A DNA stretch of 44,169 nucleotides from Opitutaceae bacterium (GTDB lineage: Bacteria > Verrucomicrobiota > Verrucomicrobiia > Opitutales > Opitutaceae), in the NCBI GenBank assembly GCA_947474995.1, contig CANJNJ010000028.1, forward strand, positions 1 to 44,169, read 5' to 3'. Shown piece after piece: positions 18,400 through 25,798 of the stretch (position 1 is its first letter; every line of letters starts with the position of its first letter). The notes beneath the pieces are model-generated. The model was not told where the DNA came from, did not search any database, and saw nothing but the letters and a program-made list of their open reading frames with translations. The position numbers and the translations under genes were made by a program.

Positions 18400-18423
18400 C
18401 GTCAGCCGGAAGACCGGCGCTAC
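18400..18423. repeat. REP-B element (GGTCTTCCGGC type)
   Basis: On the minus strand this reads GTAGCGCCGGTCTTCCGGCT. The initial TAG is also the stop codon of the adenylate cyclase gene. Related sequences lie at 34901-34924 and 41142-41165. Confidence 0.55.
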
Positions 18424-20135
18424 TCCACGGCAAATATCTCTACGGGCTCGGCGCGGCCTTTGACCGCGACGGTGCCGAGCGCCCGGGTGGAAATTTTCCC
18501 GGGCTCGCGCCGGGCTGCCAGCGTGGCGGCGCTCGTGATGATGTTCGTGCGATACTCGGCCGTGCGCGTCAGCGATTGCAGCCGGGAGGCCACGTTCACG
18601 CCGTCGCCGATCACGGAATAATTCAAACGCCGGTGCGAGCCGATGTTGCCGGCGACGACGCGAGCGGTGTTCACGCCCACGCCAATCGCAAGCGGCGGGC
18701 GGCCCTCGGCGGCGAGTTCGGCGTTGAGCGCGACCAGGGCGCGCTCCATCGCGAGTGCCGCGGCGAGGGCACGGTCGGCCGCGTCTCCTTGCGACACGGG
18801 TGCACCAAAGAGCGCCATGATTGCGTCGCCGATGAATTTGTCGATCACGCCGCCCTGTTCCTCGATCGCGGCGCTCATCCGATCGAGATAGCGATTGAGC
18901 AGCGCGAGCAAATCGCGCGGCGCGAGTTTTTCGCTGAGCGTTGTGAACCCGCGCAGATCGGCGAACAGGATGGTGACTTCGCGTTCCTCGCCGCCGAGAG
19001 CGGCGCCGTCGCGCATGAGCTGGGCCGCGACCTCGGGCGAGACGTTTTTGTCGAGGAGGTCGCGCACCTGATCCCGCTCGGCCAGTCCGGCGGACATGGA
19101 GTTCATCGCGCTGGCGAGTTGTCCCAGTTCGTCCGTCCGGTCGAAAGCCAGGCGTATCGCATAGTCGCCGCCGGCGATGACCTTCGTGTGTTCGGCCAGG
19201 TGCAAAACCGGCTGACTCACGCCTCGGGCAATCCAAAGTGCCGCCAGCGCGGCGACGGCGAGGGCGGCCAGCGAAATTAGGAGAATCTGGCTTTCGAGTT
19301 CCCGGGCCGCGGCCAGTTCGGCGCTGAGCGGGCGCTGCAGGACGACGGTGATGGGATCGTCGCCGAGCATGTCGGCCGATTTGAACAGCGTCACGTACTG
19401 CTCCCCGGGGAGGTCGAGCGTGCGGATGCGTTGCCGCGACTTGGGGTTGTCCGCGGCCGCCTGCGCGACGGCTTGGGCCAGGGGAGCAGGGAGGGTCGAG
19501 GCGAGCACCCGGGGATGCGGCGGAGCATCGGTTGAAACAAAGGTCACCTCGAGATGCGTGGGGTCCTTAATCTTCTGCGCGAAGTCCCGGTCGATGGGAA
19601 AGGCCAGGCCGAACCACGCGGCGATTTCCGGATAAGGCGCGTAGAGGGGAACGACGACCAGCACGTGCAGGGCATTGTTCAGGTAGGCAAAGCCACTGTC
19701 CTCGGCGGGATCCTTGTCCTTCGCGAGGCCGATGAGGTAGCGGAAGGGACCAACGTTTTCATTTTCCATCGCGGCATCGCTGTTGGCGCGCAACTGGCCG
19801 TCGGGATCGAGCAAGGCGATGACCGGGGCCCGAACCCGGCGGGTGTAGCTTTCGAGGAGCGAGCTGAGCGTGGCCGGATCGGAATCGAGCGATTGCTTGA
19901 TCGCGTAGTCGCTGCTCATCACCCGGGCGCTGCCGGCGAGATATTCGATGCGCTGGCGAACCGTTTCGTCAAAGATACCAGCGCCGATTTCGAGGTTGGC
20001 CTCGCTGTGGGCGAGGGCGTTGGAGCGATTGGCGCGCGAGACGAAGAAATAGGTCAGCGCGAGCGCGGCGAACAGCAGCCCGAGCAAGAGGGCCAGCAGC
20101 CGGGTACTGAAGCGGCGGAAGCGGAACCGGGACAC
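18420..20135 (-). CDS. Membrane dCache-HAMP class III adenylate cyclase
   Basis: This 571-residue receptor cyclase has TM1 at about 11-33, a periplasmic double-Cache-like sensor at about 35-280 (VIALLDPDGQLRANSD and FGLAFPIDRDF are typical), TM2 at about 283-303, a HAMP at about 304-357, and a class III cyclase catalytic domain at about 383-571. Catalytic residues are intact: metal-binding Asp393 (FADLRGF) and Asp437 (FIGDA), adenine-selecting Lys433, and transition-state Asn514 and Arg518 in VNVASR. It should make cAMP in the cytoplasm in response to a periplasmic signal. It is the last gene of a tight operon, 6 bp after the cupredoxin gene, which suggests a shared input. No CRP-like target is in the window. 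Confidence 0.9.
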   Translation of the reverse strand: MSRFRFRRFSTRLLALLLGLLFAALALTYFFVSRANRSNALAHSEANLEIGAGIFDETVRQRIEYLAGSARVMSSDYAIKQSLDSDPATLSSLLESYTRRVRAPVIALLDPDGQLRANSDAAMENENVGPFRYLIGLAKDKDPAEDSGFAYLNNALHVLVVVPLYAPYPEIAAWFGLAFPIDRDFAQKIKDPTHLEVTFVSTDAPPHPRVLASTLPAPLAQAVAQAAADNPKSRQRIRTLDLPGEQYVTLFKSADMLGDDPITVVLQRPLSAELAAARELESQILLISLAALAVAALAALWIARGVSQPVLHLAEHTKVIAGGDYAIRLAFDRTDELGQLASAMNSMSAGLAERDQVRDLLDKNVSPEVAAQLMRDGAALGGEEREVTILFADLRGFTTLSEKLAPRDLLALLNRYLDRMSAAIEEQGGVIDKFIGDAIMALFGAPVSQGDAADRALAAALAMERALVALNAELAAEGRPPLAIGVGVNTARVVAGNIGSHRRLNYSVIGDGVNVASRLQSLTRTAEYRTNIITSAATLAARREPGKISTRALGTVAVKGRAEPVEIFAVE

Positions 20136-20141
20136 GGCGGG

Positions 20142-20834
20142 CTATTTGTAACCGCCACCCTTGGCGTCAGGCGTTCGACGGATGCGTCGGTCGCGCCCGA
20201 GTTCCAGCGTCACGGCGGTGGGCGCCGCGGGACCCTCGGTGACCGTGATTTCGCGCGTCACGGGCTTGTCGAGGCGCGGCTGCCAAATCTCGACCCGGTA
20301 GCGACCGGGAGGCGCGCGGCCGATGCTGGCGGTGCCGTCAGCCGCGCTCTTCGCGAACCAGGGCGTGTCCAGCACGACGACGTAGGCGAGCATCCAGTCG
20401 TGGATGTTGCAGCCGACGGCGATGACCCCGGGTCGATCAAACACAATGGGCTCCTTCGCCTCACCGACGTAGAGGGGCAGTTCGAATTTTTTGATCTTCG
20501 AACTCGAGTAGACCTGATGTTTGACCGTGTCGCGGTTCGGAAAATGGACCGCGCTCCCGACCTGCACCGCGGTCACGTAGGGGATGAATTCCTGTTTCTG
20601 TTGCGAGATGACGGCGGCTTCTGCGGGGGCAACGGATTTGGCCGCCGCGTCTAGGGGCAGCAATGAAACCACGGCATCTGCCACCGGCTGGTTTTTCTGG
20701 TCGATGAATTTGAAAGCGACCTCGGCGCCAGCGGCGAATGGGGCGAACACCAGGGCGGCGAGCACGAGGACCATCGCGCGCTGGTCGGGTGGACGGCCGA
20801 GCTCCGCCGAGGCCGAGAGGGATCCGGAAAACAT
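20142..20834 (-). CDS. Periplasmic cupredoxin-like protein ('methylamine utilization' type)
   Basis: This exported protein of up to 230 residues has a beta-sandwich/plastocyanin-like fold. A type-1 copper site is suggested by His106 (VKHQVYS) and the C-terminal cluster Cys142-x2-His145-x2-Met148 (GCNIHDWM). The segment PPGRYRVEIWQP resembles carboxypeptidase-regulatory/TonB-plug-like repeats. Databases often name this family 'methylamine utilization protein', but no methylamine dehydrogenase genes are present here. Two starts are possible: 20834, 5 bp after the barrel gene, and 20774, directly at the signal hydrophobic core; I keep the former because it leaves an arginine in the n-region. It lies between an outer-membrane barrel gene and a receptor cyclase gene. 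Confidence 0.8.
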   Translation of the reverse strand: MFSGSLSASAELGRPPDQRAMVLVLAALVFAPFAAGAEVAFKFIDQKNQPVADAVVSLLPLDAAAKSVAPAEAAVISQQKQEFIPYVTAVQVGSAVHFPNRDTVKHQVYSSSKIKKFELPLYVGEAKEPIVFDRPGVIAVGCNIHDWMLAYVVVLDTPWFAKSAADGTASIGRAPPGRYRVEIWQPRLDKPVTREITVTEGPAAPTAVTLELGRDRRIRRTPDAKGGGYK

Positions 20835-20839
20835 CCCGG

Positions 20840-21688
20840 CTAGTATTGGTGCACCAGCACGAGGGAGACAAGGTGGTTCACGTAGCTCAACGAACCGCGA
20901 TTGGTCGTGAGCATTTCGAAACTGAAGAGGAGCGCGGAATTTTGGTCCAGCGCGTGGGTCACGCCGGCTTTGAGTCCAACGGTGTGGGCGGCGATCGAGT
21001 AAGCCACGCGCGAGTCGCCGAAGGTGTCGACGGCGAGGCGGTGGGACGCGAGCCCGACCAGGTCCGGTCGCGGCGGTCGGCCATAGGAGACGATGTCCCC
21101 GTCGCGATAACTGGCGCGAAACGTGAGACGGGTAACGTCGGTGAGGTCGCGATCGATTTCGAGGGCGGTCGTGCCGGCCGAACGATCAAACACCGCGCCT
21201 TGGGCATAGAATTGGGAAAACTCCTGGATGAGCGTGGCGCGCCACTCGTCCGTGAGGCGCTGGCGGAGCGCCGCCGTCACGCCGGTCGCCGTGCCGCGCC
21301 GGCCGGACTCCCGGGCGGCGACGGCATCGCCGGCGGCCTCCACGGAAAACACCGGGGCGTATGCGCCCAAGCCAAACTTGTGGCGCCATTCGACGCGCGC
21401 GCCGGCCAGACCCGTGGTGAGACCGTCAAAGCGCGGCCACCATTCGGCGCCCAGATGGGCGGTGAGAAAAAAGGAGTCGTCCCGCCCCACGCCGTAGCGC
21501 TGGGAAGCGAGGAAATCGGCGCCGGTCTGCAGTGCGCCAATCCGGTCTGAGGCGGCATTCGCGTTGGTGGCGTTGTCCTGCCACGTGGCCGTCATCGTCA
21601 GATTGGGCGCCCAATTGTCGGCGCGCGCGGAGAAAGCCGGCGCAAAAAACCAGGCGGCCGCGACCAAATGGGCGGAAGACAATTTCAC
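20840..21688 (-). CDS. Outer-membrane beta-barrel protein, unknown family
   Basis: This 282-residue protein has a signal peptide (about 1-24, ending ARAD) and then alternating amphipathic strands rich in aromatic girdles. Examples are NLTMTATWQDNATN, DSFFLTAHLGAEWWPRF, ARVEWRHKFGLG, RLTFRASYRDGD and a closing VNHLVSLVLVHQY ending in an aromatic residue, as expected for a barrel. There are no cysteines. It overlaps the preceding tesA-like gene by 4 bp (ATGA), indicating translational coupling. The next gene begins 5 bp downstream. A role as a porin or a partner of the cupredoxin is inference. Confidence 0.78.
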   Translation of the reverse strand: MKLSSAHLVAAAWFFAPAFSARADNWAPNLTMTATWQDNATNANAASDRIGALQTGADFLASQRYGVGRDDSFFLTAHLGAEWWPRFDGLTTGLAGARVEWRHKFGLGAYAPVFSVEAAGDAVAARESGRRGTATGVTAALRQRLTDEWRATLIQEFSQFYAQGAVFDRSAGTTALEIDRDLTDVTRLTFRASYRDGDIVSYGRPPRPDLVGLASHRLAVDTFGDSRVAYSIAAHTVGLKAGVTHALDQNSALLFSFEMLTTNRGSLSYVNHLVSLVLVHQY

Positions 21689-22362
21689 AGGAGCGGGCGG
21701 AGGGCCTTCCAGACCGTTTCGGCGACGAGGGCGTGGCCTTCCACCGTGGGGTGAATGCGATCGGGCTGGTTCAATGTGGCGCTTCCGCCGACGCCCTCCA
21801 GGAGGAAAGGAATGAGGGCCGCCTGGTGCTTTGCGGCGACGGCCGGAAAAATATTCTCAAACGCGGCGGCGAAATCGGGGCCCATTTCCCGGGGCATCTT
21901 CATGCCGGCCACGACCAATTTAGCCGCGGGATATTTGGCGTGAACGCGCTCGAGAATTGTTTCCAGATTGGTCCGCGCAACGTCGGGCCTGATCCCGCGG
22001 AGGCCGTCGTTGCCGCCCAGCGCGACCACAAAGATGGCGGCGGGCTGGCGCAGGATCCAATCGACCCGCCGCGCGCCGCCGGACGTCGTCTCCCCACTGA
22101 GTCCGGCGTTGACGACGCGCCAGGGAAGCCCGGCGGCGGAAAGCTTCGCTTGGATCAGCGCGGGGTAAGCCTGAGTCGACGGATCGCCGAGGCCGTAGCC
22201 GGCGGTCAGGCTGTCGCCAAAGAACACGATGGTCTGGGGCTCGGCGGCGCCAAGCGGCGGGACGAACGCCACCAAACCGGCCAGGAGCAGCGCCGAAACC
22301 GGGCGGCCGAATCGCGAGAAAAGACCGGCCCACGAGGCCCGATTTGCCCAGGGAATCACCAT
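21685..22362 (-). CDS. tesA: GDSL/SGNH arylesterase, TesA-like
   Basis: This 225-residue exported esterase/thioesterase is of the multifunctional TesA type. The N-terminus is a signal (hydrophobic 22-38, then AAEP). SGNH blocks are all present: Ser51 in FFGDSLTAGYG, Gly in NAGLSGETT, Asn118 in LGGNDG, and the Asp201/His204 pair in PDRIHP. The start at 22362 (MVIPWANRAS) is chosen because an upstream in-frame ATG adds a non-signal tail. It is divergent from the YbbA-like ATPase gene with 46 bp between starts, the same tesA/ybbA/ybbP neighbourhood known from Escherichia coli. It is the first gene of the four-gene minus-strand operon. Confidence 0.88.
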   Translation of the reverse strand: MVIPWANRASWAGLFSRFGRPVSALLLAGLVAFVPPLGAAEPQTIVFFGDSLTAGYGLGDPSTQAYPALIQAKLSAAGLPWRVVNAGLSGETTSGGARRVDWILRQPAAIFVVALGGNDGLRGIRPDVARTNLETILERVHAKYPAAKLVVAGMKMPREMGPDFAAAFENIFPAVAAKHQAALIPFLLEGVGGSATLNQPDRIHPTVEGHALVAETVWKALRPLL

Positions 22363-22408
22363 CGCGAGCTTCCTTTCGGGTGAATCGTGTGTTTCGTGGA
22401 CATACAAA

Positions 22409-23137
22409 ATGAGTGGTCAAACCATGTTGAAAGTCGAGCTGCTGACCAAGACGTACGCAGCCGCCGGTGGACGTACCCTGACCGTATTGCGGGAAGTAAG
22501 TTTCGCTCTTGGGGCGGGAGCGAGCCTGGCCATCGTCGGGCCCAGTGGGAGCGGCAAGACGACGCTCCTCGGTCTTTGCGCCGGATTGGACCGGCCGACG
22601 AGTGGCCAGGTCGTGCTGGCCGGAGAGTCGCTGGGCGCGTTGGACGAGGACGCGCGCGCCTTGGTCAGGAACGCGCACGTCGGATTCGTTTTTCAGAATT
22701 TCCAACTCGTGCCGACCTTGACCGCGTTGGAAAACGTGATGGTCCCGCTGGAATTGCGGGGCGAAGGCGGGGTCAGCGTGGAAACCGACGCCAAGGCCCT
22801 GCTGGCGCGGGTGGGCCTGGCGGAGCGGTGCGATCACTATCCCGTGCAGCTTTCCGGCGGCGAGCAGCAGCGCGTGGCGCTGGCCCGGGCGTTCATGAAC
22901 CGGCCCAAGATTTTGTTCTGCGACGAGCCGACGGGGAATCTCGACGACGACACCGCGGCCGCGATGGTGGAATTGATTTTCGAAATAAACCGCGAGCGGG
23001 GGACCACCCTGGTGCTGGTGACCCACAATCTCGAACTGGCCGGCCGCTGCCAGCGGATCATCCGGCTGAAGGGTGGGGCGGTGGTGAGCGATGAAACCGC
23101 CGCGCCTCGCGCGGCGGCTGTGACGAGTGACAGGTGA
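22409..23137 (+). CDS. ABC transporter ATP-binding protein, YbbA/LolD-like
   Basis: This 242-residue ATPase has Walker A GPSGSGKT (44-51), a Q-loop in FVFQNFQLVP, signature LSGGEQQR, Walker [13 protein letters not shown] and H-loop VTHN. It is of the MacB/LolD subgroup that works with FtsX-type permeases. It is predicted to power the permease encoded next (75-bp gap). The start may be 22409 or ATG 22424. Its last residues, VTSDR and stop, are encoded by a GAGTGAC-type intergenic repeat, so the natural C-terminus may once have differed. Position opposite tesA supports the YbbA assignment. Confidence 0.88.
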   Translation: MSGQTMLKVELLTKTYAAAGGRTLTVLREVSFALGAGASLAIVGPSGSGKTTLLGLCAGLDRPTSGQVVLAGESLGALDEDARALVRNAHVGFVFQNFQLVPTLTALENVMVPLELRGEGGVSVETDAKALLARVGLAERCDHYPVQLSGGEQQRVALARAFMNRPKILFCDEPTGNLDDDTAAAMVELIFEINRERGTTLVLVTHNLELAGRCQRIIRLKGGAVVSDETAAPRAAAVTSDR

Positions 23138-23210
23138 CGAGTGGCGAGACCCCAACCACGATTGCGCGTACCGCCAATTCTCATCACTGGTCACTCGCCA
23201 CTCATCACTC
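23121..23210. repeat. GAGTGAC word repeats forming an inverted pair
   Basis: TGACGAGTGACAGGTGACGA plus GTGGCGAG at 23121-23148 and the roughly complementary CTCGCCACTCATCAC at 23194-23208 can pair into a hairpin that ends 3-5 bp before the permease start. The left arm is partly coding for the preceding ATPase. Related words occur at 25821-25860. Confidence 0.65.
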
Positions 23211-23212
23211 CG

Positions 23213-25798
23213 ATGACCTTCATCTTCAAAATGGCCTGGCGCGATTCGCGCGCTTCGCGGCGGCGGCTCGGGCTGTTTTCGCTGTCGGTCGTCCTGGGGA
23301 TCGCGGCCCTCGTCGCCATTGGATCGCTCGGCGCCAATCTCGAGCGCGCCATCAACGATCAGGCGAAGGAGTTGCTGGGCGCGGACTTGATCGTCACCAG
23401 CCGGCTGGCGCCAAGCGAGCCGGTGCGAAATTACCTCGAGGGACTGGGCGGCGAGGTGGCCCGGGAAATCAGTTTCTCGTCGATGCTCCTGTTCCCCAGC
23501 GGCGACGGGGCCACGCGACTCGTCAACGTGCGCGCCATCGAGGGGGATTTTCCGTTTTTCGGCACGCTGGAAACCGAGCCGGCCTCGGCTGTCGCCCGCT
23601 TGCGCGCGGGGGGCGACGTGGCCGTCATCGAGGAGACGCTCCTGCGCCAGTACCACACGAAGGTCGGCGAGACGGTGAAGCTGGGCAGCACGCTCTACAC
23701 GGTCGTGGGCGCGCTGAAGAAATTGCCCGGGGAGTCGTCGGCCGTCAGCGCCACCGTGGCGCCGCGGGCACTCGTGCCGCGGGCCTCGCTCGAGACGGCC
23801 GGGCTGGGGGAGAACAACACCCTTGTCCGCCATCGCACGATGCTCAAGTTGCCGGCGGATCGACCGCCCGCAGCGGTGGAGCGTGAGATGCGGCAGCAAT
23901 TTCGCGGCGAGCGTCTGGGCTACGACACCGTGGCCGAGCGGAAACGCGATCTCGGGCGCGCCTTGGAAAACATCGAGGGCTTCCTGAGCCTCGTCGGCTT
24001 CATCGCGCTTTTTCTCGGCGCCATCGGCGTGGCGAGCGCGATTCACGTCTATGTGCAGCAGAAGATCACCACGGTGGCCGTGTTGCGCTGTCTCGGGGCG
24101 AGCGCGCGGCAGGCCTTCGCGGTCTACCTGGTGCAGGGACTCGCCTTGGGCGTCTTCGGCGCGATCCTCGGCGCCGCGCTCGGGGTCGCGGTGCAGTCCT
24201 TGTTGCCGCCGCTGCTGCGGGATGTGCTGCCGATTGACGTCACGTTTTTCATCGCCTGGCCGCAGGTGCTCGGCGGCATGGTGGCGGGTTTGGTGATTTG
24301 CCTGCTGTTCACCGTGCTGCCTTTGCTCGCCGTCCGGCGGGTTTCCCCCTTGGTTGCCTTGCGTTCCGCCTACGCTGAGGGGCCGCCACCGCCGGATCCG
24401 TGGCGCATTGCGATCGGCGTGTTCATCGTGGTGGCCGTGACGGCGTTCTCGATCTGGCGTACACAGCGATTGCGGGACGGGCTTGGTTTCGCGGGGATGC
24501 TCATCGGCGGTTTTCTGGTGCTCGCCGGGCTCGCGACGGTTGTCTCTTGGGCCGCGCGCAAGTGGTCGGGCCGGAGTCTTCCTTATGTCGTCCGCCAGGG
24601 CGTGGCCAATCTCCATCGGCCGAACAATCGCACCGTGCTGCTGCTCGTGTCGCTCGGTCTCGGCACTTTCCTGATGCTGACGCTGTTTCTCGCGCGCACG
24701 ACCTTGTTGGGCGAGATCGCACTCACCAGCGGCACGGATCGGCCCAATCTGCTGTTCTTCGACATCCAGGACGATCAGATCGACGGGCTCGCCAAAATCA
24801 GCGCGCAACAGGGTGCGCCCGTGTTGATTCAGGCCCCGATTGTGACGATGAAGATCGCCTCGGTGCGGGGGCGCAAGGTGGAGGAACTGCTGCGCGGAGC
24901 GGACCGCCGTCCCTGGCAGGAAGCGCGGGACGAAAAAGGCGGCCGGCCGGAGGGCGCCGAGCGGATTGCGGCCTGGACCTTGCGGCGCGAATATCGCTCG
25001 ACGTACCGCGGAAAATTGGAGAGTTCGGAAAAAGTCTTGAGCGGGGCCTTTGTCGGCCGGGTGACGCCCGGCACCGCGGTCGTCCCGATTTCGATCGAGC
25101 AGAGCTTGTTCCGCGACATGGCGCTGAGCCTCGGCGATGAAATCGAATGGGACGTCCAGGGCGTGCCCATCCGGACGAAAGTCGTGAGCGTTCGCGCGGT
25201 GGAATGGCGGCGGCTCGAACCAAACTTCTTTGTGGTCTTTCCCGAAGGGGTGCTGGAGGCGGCGCCGAAGTTTCACGTGGCCGCCGTGCGCGCGGATTCG
25301 AGCGAGCAATCGGCCGCGGTCCAGCGCGCCGTGGTCGAGACCTACCCAGGGGTGACGGCGATCGACCTCGCGCTGGTGATGCAGACCGTCGACGGGATCT
25401 TCTCGAAGGTGGCCTTTGTGATCCAGTTCATGGCGCTCTTCACGGTTATCACCGGCGTTATCGTGCTCGCCGGCGCGGTGCTGACGGGGCGGTTTCAACG
25501 GATTCGGGAAACGGTCCTGCTCCGCACGCTGGGGGCGACCCGCCGGCAGCTCCTCCAGATTCAGTTTGTGGAATACGCCATTCTCGGGTCGCTCGCCTCG
25601 ATGGTCGGCTGCGGGTTGGCGGTCGCGGGCAATGCCTTGCTGGCGAAATTCATTTTCCGGATTACGCCGTCCGTCTCGATTCCGGTGGTGGTGGCGGGTG
25701 GGCTGGCGGTCTGCGCCGTCACGATCGCGACCGGGTTGCTGTCAAGCCGAGGCATCACCCAGCACCCGCCATTGGAAGTGCTGCGACAGGAGACGTGA
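23213..25798 (+). CDS. FtsX-family ABC permease, YbbP-like
   Basis: This 861-residue inner-membrane permease has two FtsX-type halves. TM1 is at about 17-38, a large periplasmic domain follows, and helices cluster near 258-290, 310-345, 355-385, 400-420, 428-450 and 470-495. A second periplasmic domain (about 500-720) is followed by three terminal helices. The conserved ATLRCLGAS-type coupling helix appears as VAVLRCLGASARQ and LLRTLGATRRQ. The size and duplicated layout match YbbP-like permeases, which are often linked to lipid or lipoprotein release. It works with the ATPase immediately upstream. ATG 23213 (MTFIFKMAWRDSRAS) is the family start. Confidence 0.88.
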   Translation: MTFIFKMAWRDSRASRRRLGLFSLSVVLGIAALVAIGSLGANLERAINDQAKELLGADLIVTSRLAPSEPVRNYLEGLGGEVAREISFSSMLLFPSGDGATRLVNVRAIEGDFPFFGTLETEPASAVARLRAGGDVAVIEETLLRQYHTKVGETVKLGSTLYTVVGALKKLPGESSAVSATVAPRALVPRASLETAGLGENNTLVRHRTMLKLPADRPPAAVEREMRQQFRGERLGYDTVAERKRDLGRALENIEGFLSLVGFIALFLGAIGVASAIHVYVQQKITTVAVLRCLGASARQAFAVYLVQGLALGVFGAILGAALGVAVQSLLPPLLRDVLPIDVTFFIAWPQVLGGMVAGLVICLLFTVLPLLAVRRVSPLVALRSAYAEGPPPPDPWRIAIGVFIVVAVTAFSIWRTQRLRDGLGFAGMLIGGFLVLAGLATVVSWAARKWSGRSLPYVVRQGVANLHRPNNRTVLLLVSLGLGTFLMLTLFLARTTLLGEIALTSGTDRPNLLFFDIQDDQIDGLAKISAQQGAPVLIQAPIVTMKIASVRGRKVEELLRGADRRPWQEARDEKGGRPEGAERIAAWTLRREYRSTYRGKLESSEKVLSGAFVGRVTPGTAVVPISIEQSLFRDMALSLGDEIEWDVQGVPIRTKVVSVRAVEWRRLEPNFFVVFPEGVLEAAPKFHVAAVRADSSEQSAAVQRAVVETYPGVTAIDLALVMQTVDGIFSKVAFVIQFMALFTVITGVIVLAGAVLTGRFQRIRETVLLRTLGATRRQLLQIQFVEYAILGSLASMVGCGLAVAGNALLAKFIFRITPSVSIPVVVAGGLAVCAVTIATGLLSSRGITQHPPLEVLRQET

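Follow-up and report, generated by a model that had tools for sequence, protein, structure and literature searches.

In a 44,169-nucleotide stretch from an Opitutaceae bacterium (contig CANJNJ010000028.1 of assembly GCA_947474995.1; the whole stretch is called the window below), a predicted secreted copper protein of the cupredoxin type is encoded next to a membrane receptor that has a periplasmic dCache domain and an adenylate cyclase output. The pairing of this cupredoxin with one type of receptor is strongly supported. It recurs in several phyla, and the receptors that share the sensor differ in what they carry on the cytoplasmic side. We are confident that the two proteins work together. 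We favor, as fairly probable, the reading that the cupredoxin serves as periplasmic input subunit, or co-sensor, of a membrane receptor with interchangeable outputs; direct contact between the two is also somewhat probable. The argument is built on gene identities, predicted folds, conservation of the copper ligands, the pairing, and the differing outputs, which the analysis establishes.

Pairing of cupredoxin and receptor

An alignment scan of 84,980 genomes for the cupredoxin, with search patterns that include the ligand residues, found at least 571 relatives, and the best 80 loci were kept by cupredoxin similarity alone. The sensor is represented by a profile (A8) of the window type, meaning a transmembrane (TM) segment, dCache, and a second TM segment, residues 1-300, built from cupredoxin-adjacent receptors. 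This profile matches a neighbor in 77 of the 80 loci. The sensor gene is 150 bp or less from the cupredoxin in 64 loci and at 905-1373 bp in the other 13, three of which (L090, L092, and L097) have it on the opposite strand. The loci with no sensor match are L066, where the sequence ends 70 bp past the cupredoxin, L118, and L136. The phyla represented are Verrucomicrobiota, Nitrospirota, Nitrospinota, Rokuibacteriota, Methylomirabilota, Rifleibacteriota, and Pseudomonadota, and the cupredoxin-receptor pair, often with an outer-membrane barrel, is seen in Verrucomicrobiota, Nitrospirota, Rokuibacteriota, Rifleibacteriota, and Pseudomonadota. An earlier note on this DNA had set beforehand, as a neighborhood test of its idea, that the genes be conserved beyond close strains; for the pair, this turned out to be the case.

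The association was measured again in 299 Pseudomonadota genomes drawn evenly around genome G059, at cut-offs of E ≤ 1e-20 for the cupredoxin and E ≤ 1e-10 for the sensor. The cupredoxin is present in 37 genomes, the sensor in 33, and both in 32 (Fisher p = 1e-36). Within 4 kb of a sensor are 29 of the 39 sampled cupredoxin genes, from 28 of the 32 genomes that carry both. Domain dCache_3 in general is found in 117 of the 299 genomes, 85 of these without cupredoxin, so the cupredoxin is tied to one receptor branch.

Two loci of unusual layout came up with the sensor. The only one of the 33 sensor genomes without a cupredoxin (G187) has at L189:2937-5411 a receptor divergent from a 769-aa gene that we read as a TonB-type receptor, and at L190:2749-8347 a single cupredoxin gene stands between two GGDEF-EAL receptors of the same sensor type.

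Fold and predicted copper site of the cupredoxin

The window cupredoxin has Pfam matches below cut-off only, the best to CarboxypepD_reg with 27.7 bits against a cut-off of 32.3. Its AlphaFold2 model, from an alignment of 52 rows (A6), has a predicted local distance difference test (pLDDT) score of 90.4. In model comparison, residues ~69-156 match plastocyanin, amicyanin, and NirK with Z about 11-12 and a root-mean-square deviation of 1.7-2.5 over 83-90 residues. A second structural match is to the transthyretin-like domain of carboxypeptidase D, at Z = 11.6 over 79 residues running from 37 to 213. Because just 79 residues of that span align, the cupredoxin domain of the model is apparently inserted there, nested in a transthyretin/carboxypeptidase-regulatory-like domain.

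His106, Cys142, His145, and Met148 sit on the ligand positions of type-1 copper proteins in a profile alignment. The 43 Opitutales cupredoxin paralogs described below, selected without a ligand pattern, keep all four ligands in 43 of 43 cases, and the His-Cys-His-Met set is in 81 of 81 rows of the main clade, 80 of which came in via patterns that include the ligands. Many invariant residues surround the copper site in the alignments. With both the fold and the full ligand set present, the window protein is a predicted type-1 (blue) cupredoxin, and we infer that it binds copper. The fold and the His-Cys-x2-His-x2-Met site are common to it and to amicyanin, pseudoazurin, and the C-terminal cupredoxin of NirK. 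Of these, amicyanin and pseudoazurin pass electrons on to enzymes. Unlike those two, the window cupredoxin appears to sit inside a transthyretin-like domain, and its gene lies with those of receptors.

The receptor cyclase

Pfam assigns to the receptor Guanylate_cyc (PF00211) at E = 8.5e-23, HAMP at 1.3e-12, and dCache_3 (PF14827) at 1e-7, the last with 32.3 bits against a cut-off of 25.7. Hydrophobic segments 14-32 and 284-302 bracket the dCache domain, and HAMP comes after the second. Compared by sequence with solved structures, the sensor domain has no match at E ≤ 1, a result that is silent on its fold beyond Pfam. The cyclase domain does align with solved cyclases by sequence match to PDB entries. 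Asp393, Lys433, Asp437, Asn514, and Arg518 are invariant across 15 rows; presumably Asp393 and Asp437 hold the metal, Lys433 specifies adenine, and Asn514 and Arg518 act on the transition state. The output is thus predicted from sequence to be a class III adenylate cyclase. The earlier note had claimed a periplasmic dCache sensor, an intact cyclase site, and His-Cys-x2-His-x2-Met ligands in the cupredoxin, and each is borne out here, the cyclase keeping its expected catalytic residues.

Different outputs behind one sensor

Behind the window-type sensor, Pfam finds a class III cyclase, GGDEF-EAL, HisKA-HATPase (L096), or PAS-HisKA-HATPase-REC (L092). The Pfam run covered 9 receptors of alignment A4 and both kinases of the window's own genome, and other kinases are phmmer matches to those two. 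Adenylate and GGDEF outputs had been named in advance, and both occur, with histidine kinases in addition. By motif and profile, 75 rows divide into 43 cyclases, 28 GGDEF-EAL proteins, and 2 kinases, and the last two rows, both partial, have no assignment; the labels of seven degenerate GGDEF proteins and of the frameshifted L064 were set by eye. On a sensor tree of 58 of the 75 rows (L070, L116, and L131 were dropped as partial, and Opitutae were thinned), 4 changes are needed to account for the three output types, versus a mean of 20.8 in shuffles. Because three types need at least two changes, outputs have been exchanged at least twice while the cupredoxin and the sensor stayed together. 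More than two exchanges are likely, not firm.

Further cupredoxins in the same genome and its relatives

The genome that holds the window has three further cupredoxins. One, at L054:6304-10909 (contig C47), has an OmpR-type response regulator on one side and a histidine kinase on the other; next in the row comes a 415-aa protein without a Pfam match. This is a second cupredoxin-receptor system in the genome. At L055:523-8439 (C77) the order is a 457-aa porin-like protein, the cupredoxin paralog, a hybrid histidine kinase, and a TonB-dependent receptor. The third, at L056:6645-8839 (C178), adjoins a sulfite-oxidase-like molybdopterin enzyme and has no adjoining receptor, and the same is found at L177 and L178.

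These three and 40 from relatives make up the 43 Opitutales paralog loci, selected by cupredoxin similarity alone, with one short match (G016:C29, 35 residues) left out. A histidine kinase adjoins 36 of them (23 like L054 and 13 like L055) and a class III cyclase 1; the remaining ones comprise 3 with a molybdopterin enzyme, 2 with none of these, and 1 cut by a contig end. L155 is counted with the histidine kinases, its kinase open reading frame (ORF) overlapping the cupredoxin ORF; the cupredoxin tree, made from the 43 paralogs plus 39 of the 81 main rows, labels it "none." All 13 L055-like paralogs have a porin-like protein upstream by phmmer match to the one at L055. That 457-aa protein has no Pfam barrel match, and calling it a porin is our reading of its sequence. 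Should that reading hold, two different barrels would occur in the order barrel-cupredoxin-receptor.

The outer-membrane barrel and TesA

The window operon reads on the minus strand from 22407 to 18420 in the order tesA, barrel, cupredoxin, cyclase, with gaps of -4, 5, and 6 bp. The AlphaFold2 model of the barrel (alignment A7, 48 rows) has 12 long strands and a pLDDT of 95.5, with EstA, NalP, OmpG, and FapF among its best Foldseek matches. A C-terminal Y/F is present in the window barrel and in 16 of 18 rows overall, the remaining two being incomplete. Pfam has no family for the window barrel at E ≤ 1, so it falls in no named Pfam barrel family; among relatives there are matches to MtrB_PioB and OMP_b-brl, all below cut-off. 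An electron conduit of the MtrB type was considered from a single 25.8-bit match to one chain of 6r2q, which we take to be MtrCAB, and was judged too weak. The barrel is within 3 kb of the cupredoxin in 51 of the 80 loci, specifically 25 of the 29 from Opitutae and 26 of the 51 others. Nine genomes chosen for a barrel-less locus have no barrel elsewhere in the genome either, and together with the 29 loci lacking one they rule out the barrel as an indispensable part. It is common yet dispensable. Tandem barrels of different subfamilies, 24-50% identical to the window barrel, are upstream of the cupredoxin at L041, L042, L046, and L047.

TesA was followed in 57 near-home genomes (own, same genus, family, and order). 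The barrel, cupredoxin, and cyclase are on one contig in the own genome and 12 others, with the cyclase of L044 cut by the contig end. In G005 the three genes are divided over two contigs, and in G016 the end of the cupredoxin and the cyclase are at a contig start and no barrel was found. TesA is upstream in 11 of the 12 unbroken sets of relatives, and divergent ABC genes are beside TesA in most. L048 has the barrel, cupredoxin, and cyclase without TesA, at L043 TesA and the barrel have neither cupredoxin nor cyclase near them, and at L052 a cyclase relative stands alone. Over the 80 loci, TesA is in 20 of 29 from Opitutae and 0 of 51 from outside. In E. coli, too, tesA and ybbA-ybbP are arranged divergently, and from this order and loci L048, L043, and L052 we explain the presence of TesA by an older tesA/ybbA-ybbP neighborhood. 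Membership of TesA in the sensory module is ruled out by its absence outside Opitutae, by L048, and by the E. coli order. The ORFs thus confirm the four-gene set and its spacing as the earlier note gave them, while the functional link it drew to TesA falls away; the barrel that it offered as a possible outer-membrane partner is a predicted outer-membrane barrel by the model, present in 51 of the 80 loci and lacking in the other 29.

Proposed mechanism and its alternatives

In the mechanism we propose, the secreted cupredoxin would take up copper with its His-Cys-His-Met ligands and would dock on the dCache domain of the receptor when in one of its metal or redox states. The change in dCache would pass by the second TM segment and HAMP to the cytoplasmic output, which in the window is the predicted class III adenylate cyclase, so that cyclic AMP (cAMP) would be set by the receptor. 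In relatives, the same cupredoxin-dCache pair would drive GGDEF-EAL or histidine-kinase outputs. The barrel would most likely admit the relevant solute or oxidant to the periplasm. Physical contact, the direction of the effect, and redox or copper state as the signal are what we infer; redox state is a possible signal that we put forward tentatively, and copper supply is a rather doubtful one.

Several observations weigh against a co-sensor. The interaction, the copper binding, and the effect on cAMP are all argued from genes and models. In the Pseudomonadota sample, the center G059 is a known carrier of the pair and is counted in, 10 of the 39 cupredoxin genes have no sensor within 4 kb, the two genes are far apart in 4 genomes, and 5 of the 37 cupredoxin genomes have no sensor. 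When all ORFs were checked around these ten genes with no sensor close by, nine had no recognized adjoining receptor and one, in G120, had histidine kinases on both sides. Because the profile A8 was defined from cupredoxin neighbors, the association in the direction from sensor to cupredoxin is partly circular; the direction from cupredoxin to sensor (32 of 37) is less affected. The barrel is absent from 29 of the 80 loci. The well-supported branches of the sensor tree alone force fewer than 4 output changes, no more than one per type. The three molybdopterin-linked cupredoxins and two others with no adjoining receptor also mean that the family is not exclusively sensory.

One alternative is an electron carrier. 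The cupredoxin could serve an envelope oxidoreductase while the receptor of the same operon regulates that respiratory pathway without touching the cupredoxin. Cupredoxins are classically electron carriers, related ones adjoin the molybdopterin oxidoreductase at L056, L177, and L178, and by sequence reading there are cytochrome c oxidase (L176) and MauG-like (L188) genes beside others. Yet no redox enzyme family recurs widely in the flanks of the 52 receptor-type loci, and a cyclase or GGDEF-EAL protein does not regulate its neighbor in cis as a response regulator does, which leaves the carrier unlikely in our estimate. A pathway made of all four window genes, in which the cyclase senses the release of lysophospholipid or acyl groups, would make sense of the 4-bp overlap between TesA and the barrel and of TesA lying upstream in 11 of 12 unbroken sets. 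It is very hard to reconcile with the 0 of 51 loci outside Opitutae, with one relative that has the set without tesA and another that has tesA and the barrel without cupredoxin or cyclase nearby, or with the same divergence from ybbA-ybbP in E. coli, and we give it almost no weight.

Two other alternatives turn on the copper. The cupredoxin might report copper availability, as apo versus holo protein, and not redox state. The invariant type-1 ligands are in keeping with that, and metal-binding periplasmic partners of kinases share this gene logic. Weakly against it, no copper gene family is among the recurrent flanking families, in a comparison where copper genes were not searched for, and it is a globin that recurs beside part of the Pseudomonadota loci; we regard it as doubtful. 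Or the protein could be an adaptor that binds a ligand or the barrel through its transthyretin-like host domain, with the copper merely stabilizing it. The carboxypeptidase-regulatory-like fold often serves binding, and the cupredoxin does appear nested in such a domain. Against a structural role, all four ligands, not some, are invariant over the 43 paralogs and many invariant residues lie around the copper site, so we find it improbable. The company of heme and molybdenum proteins would point to redox over copper resistance, again with copper genes not searched for. If the co-sensor is generalized, one would have an unrecognized multi-phylum class of envelope sensors with the nested type-1 copper protein as the common input, in which redox state, fed via the barrel or a pair of DUF3034 and globin, is read by dCache receptors with adenylate cyclase, cyclic di-GMP (c-di-GMP), or histidine-kinase outputs. 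We offer this tentatively, as possible. If true, it would be a copper-based counterpart to redox sensing by heme and by disulfides, and the window's own genome would have three of these systems.

Comparison with known systems

Periplasmic partners that feed membrane receptors are known, and blue copper proteins are regarded as carriers of electrons. YfiR is a redox-sensitive periplasmic partner of a diguanylate cyclase. PrrC/SenC is a copper-binding Sco protein encoded with the redox-responsive kinase system PrrB-PrrA, and Sco proteins have a thioredoxin fold, not a cupredoxin fold. In the portions of the literature available to us, NspS-MbaA of Vibrio cholerae and Sinorhizobium meliloti joins a periplasmic protein to a c-di-GMP receptor in the membrane, by the logic proposed here; NspS is a polyamine-binding periplasmic binding protein, whereas the window partner is a cupredoxin and the outputs include adenylate cyclase and histidine kinases. 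The window family shares the trait that the partner is encoded with the receptor (77 of 80 loci), with a partner that is not a periplasmic binding protein.

A 2022 review of c-di-GMP sensing gives, in its available text, disulfide, heme, flavin, and hemerythrin-iron inputs for oxygen/redox (PMC8846402). HmsC-HmsD is included there as a soluble partner of a membrane cyclase that reads the periplasmic redox state, with HmsC listed under disulfide reduction, unlike the copper-type partner here (PMC8846402). The same available text has 0 matches for copper, cupredoxin, or methylamine. In the part available of another paper, Sco (SenC, PrrC) is a copper chaperone in oxidase assembly (PMC7558416), which differs from the window protein with its cupredoxin fold. 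Titles and abstract starts of open-licence PMC papers gave no account of a cupredoxin-receptor pair; most subscription papers and all preprints are outside that set, and a published account may exist. In the available text of a Sinorhizobium paper (PMC8407117), the sole cupredoxin passage concerns a multicopper oxidase, and a Bordetella c-di-GMP review (PMC12805831) has 0 matches to the terms searched. "Methylamine utilization protein" and "diguanylate cyclase" are both present, not linked, in what is available of PMC2474590 and PMC8055020 (MauE/MauD in Methylacidiphilum; Leptospira gene-expression tables).

The logic of the pair thus resembles that of known partner-receptor systems, and the partner is of a different kind. 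The recurring pairing, with outputs that differ, suggests an undescribed way of reading envelope copper or redox conditions. A cupredoxin that stayed constant while outputs changed would make envelope copper or redox sensing directly testable, and would supply candidate signals for many orphan dCache cyclases, GGDEF-EAL proteins, and histidine kinases. On two annotated plasmids, from Caballeronia and Comamonas, these cupredoxins go by the name "methylamine utilization protein" and stand beside receptors labeled "EAL domain-containing protein"; the former name is an annotation, not a tested function, and our reading would suggest a function for that family.

Window genes and other genomic company

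The genes are listed in Table 1. TesA matches Lipase_GDSL_2 at E = 8.2e-29, and the tesA ORF has an alternative ATG at 22362. For the cupredoxin, as we read the sequence and alignment A2, a start at Met21 fits a predicted signal peptide better, and the gap to the barrel gene would become 65 bp. A promoter and terminator scan gave nothing useful.

Table 1. Positions of the discussed genes in the window
Feature	Position	Strand	Basis
TesA-like SGNH hydrolase	21685..22407	-	ORF; Lipase_GDSL_2; judged outside the sensory module
Predicted 12-strand outer-membrane beta-barrel, signal peptide, terminal Tyr, 282 aa	20840..21688	-	ORF, model
Predicted secreted type-1 cupredoxin, 230 aa; start probably 20774	20142..20834	-	ORF, model, ligands
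Receptor, TM-dCache_3-TM-HAMP-predicted class III adenylate cyclase, 571 aa	18420..20135	-	ORF, Pfam, PDB sequence match
Divergent ABC ATPase (ORF 22229-23137, an ATG at 22409) and permease (ORF 23141-25798)	22409..25798	+	ORFs; placed like YbbA/YbbP

Flank families at the 52 receptor-type loci were obtained by all-against-all clustering, with some large antisense-frame families set aside by eye. The recurrent ones are the cupredoxin (52), receptor (50), barrel (26), ABC ATPase (9), globin (8), and a SnoaL-like family (8). In the Pseudomonadota sample, DUF3034 is in 24 of the 299 genomes, 23 of which carry the cupredoxin, and 19 of those 23 DUF3034 genes are within 4 kb of the cupredoxin or the sensor. 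All 22 of the DUF3034 genomes checked have a PF01152 globin 600 bp or less from that gene. Globins per se are common, being found in 31 of the 33 sensor genomes, and it is the nearness to DUF3034 that counts. Some of the DUF3034-adjacent globins start with a lipoprotein-like signal by sequence. DUF3034 ends in an aromatic residue, from which we can do no more than guess that it too is a barrel; homology to the window barrel was considered and is not claimed, the profile comparison giving a probability of 6.7%.

At L190, L193, L183, and L137 in Pseudomonadota, DUF3034 is beside a truncated globin, and either the cupredoxin or the GGDEF-EAL receptor that goes with it is there as well. A family of secreted proteins precedes the cupredoxin at another group of Pseudomonadota loci (L105, L107, L108, L118, L125, L129, L131, and L135), and is SnoaL-like in the two that were scanned, L118 and L125.

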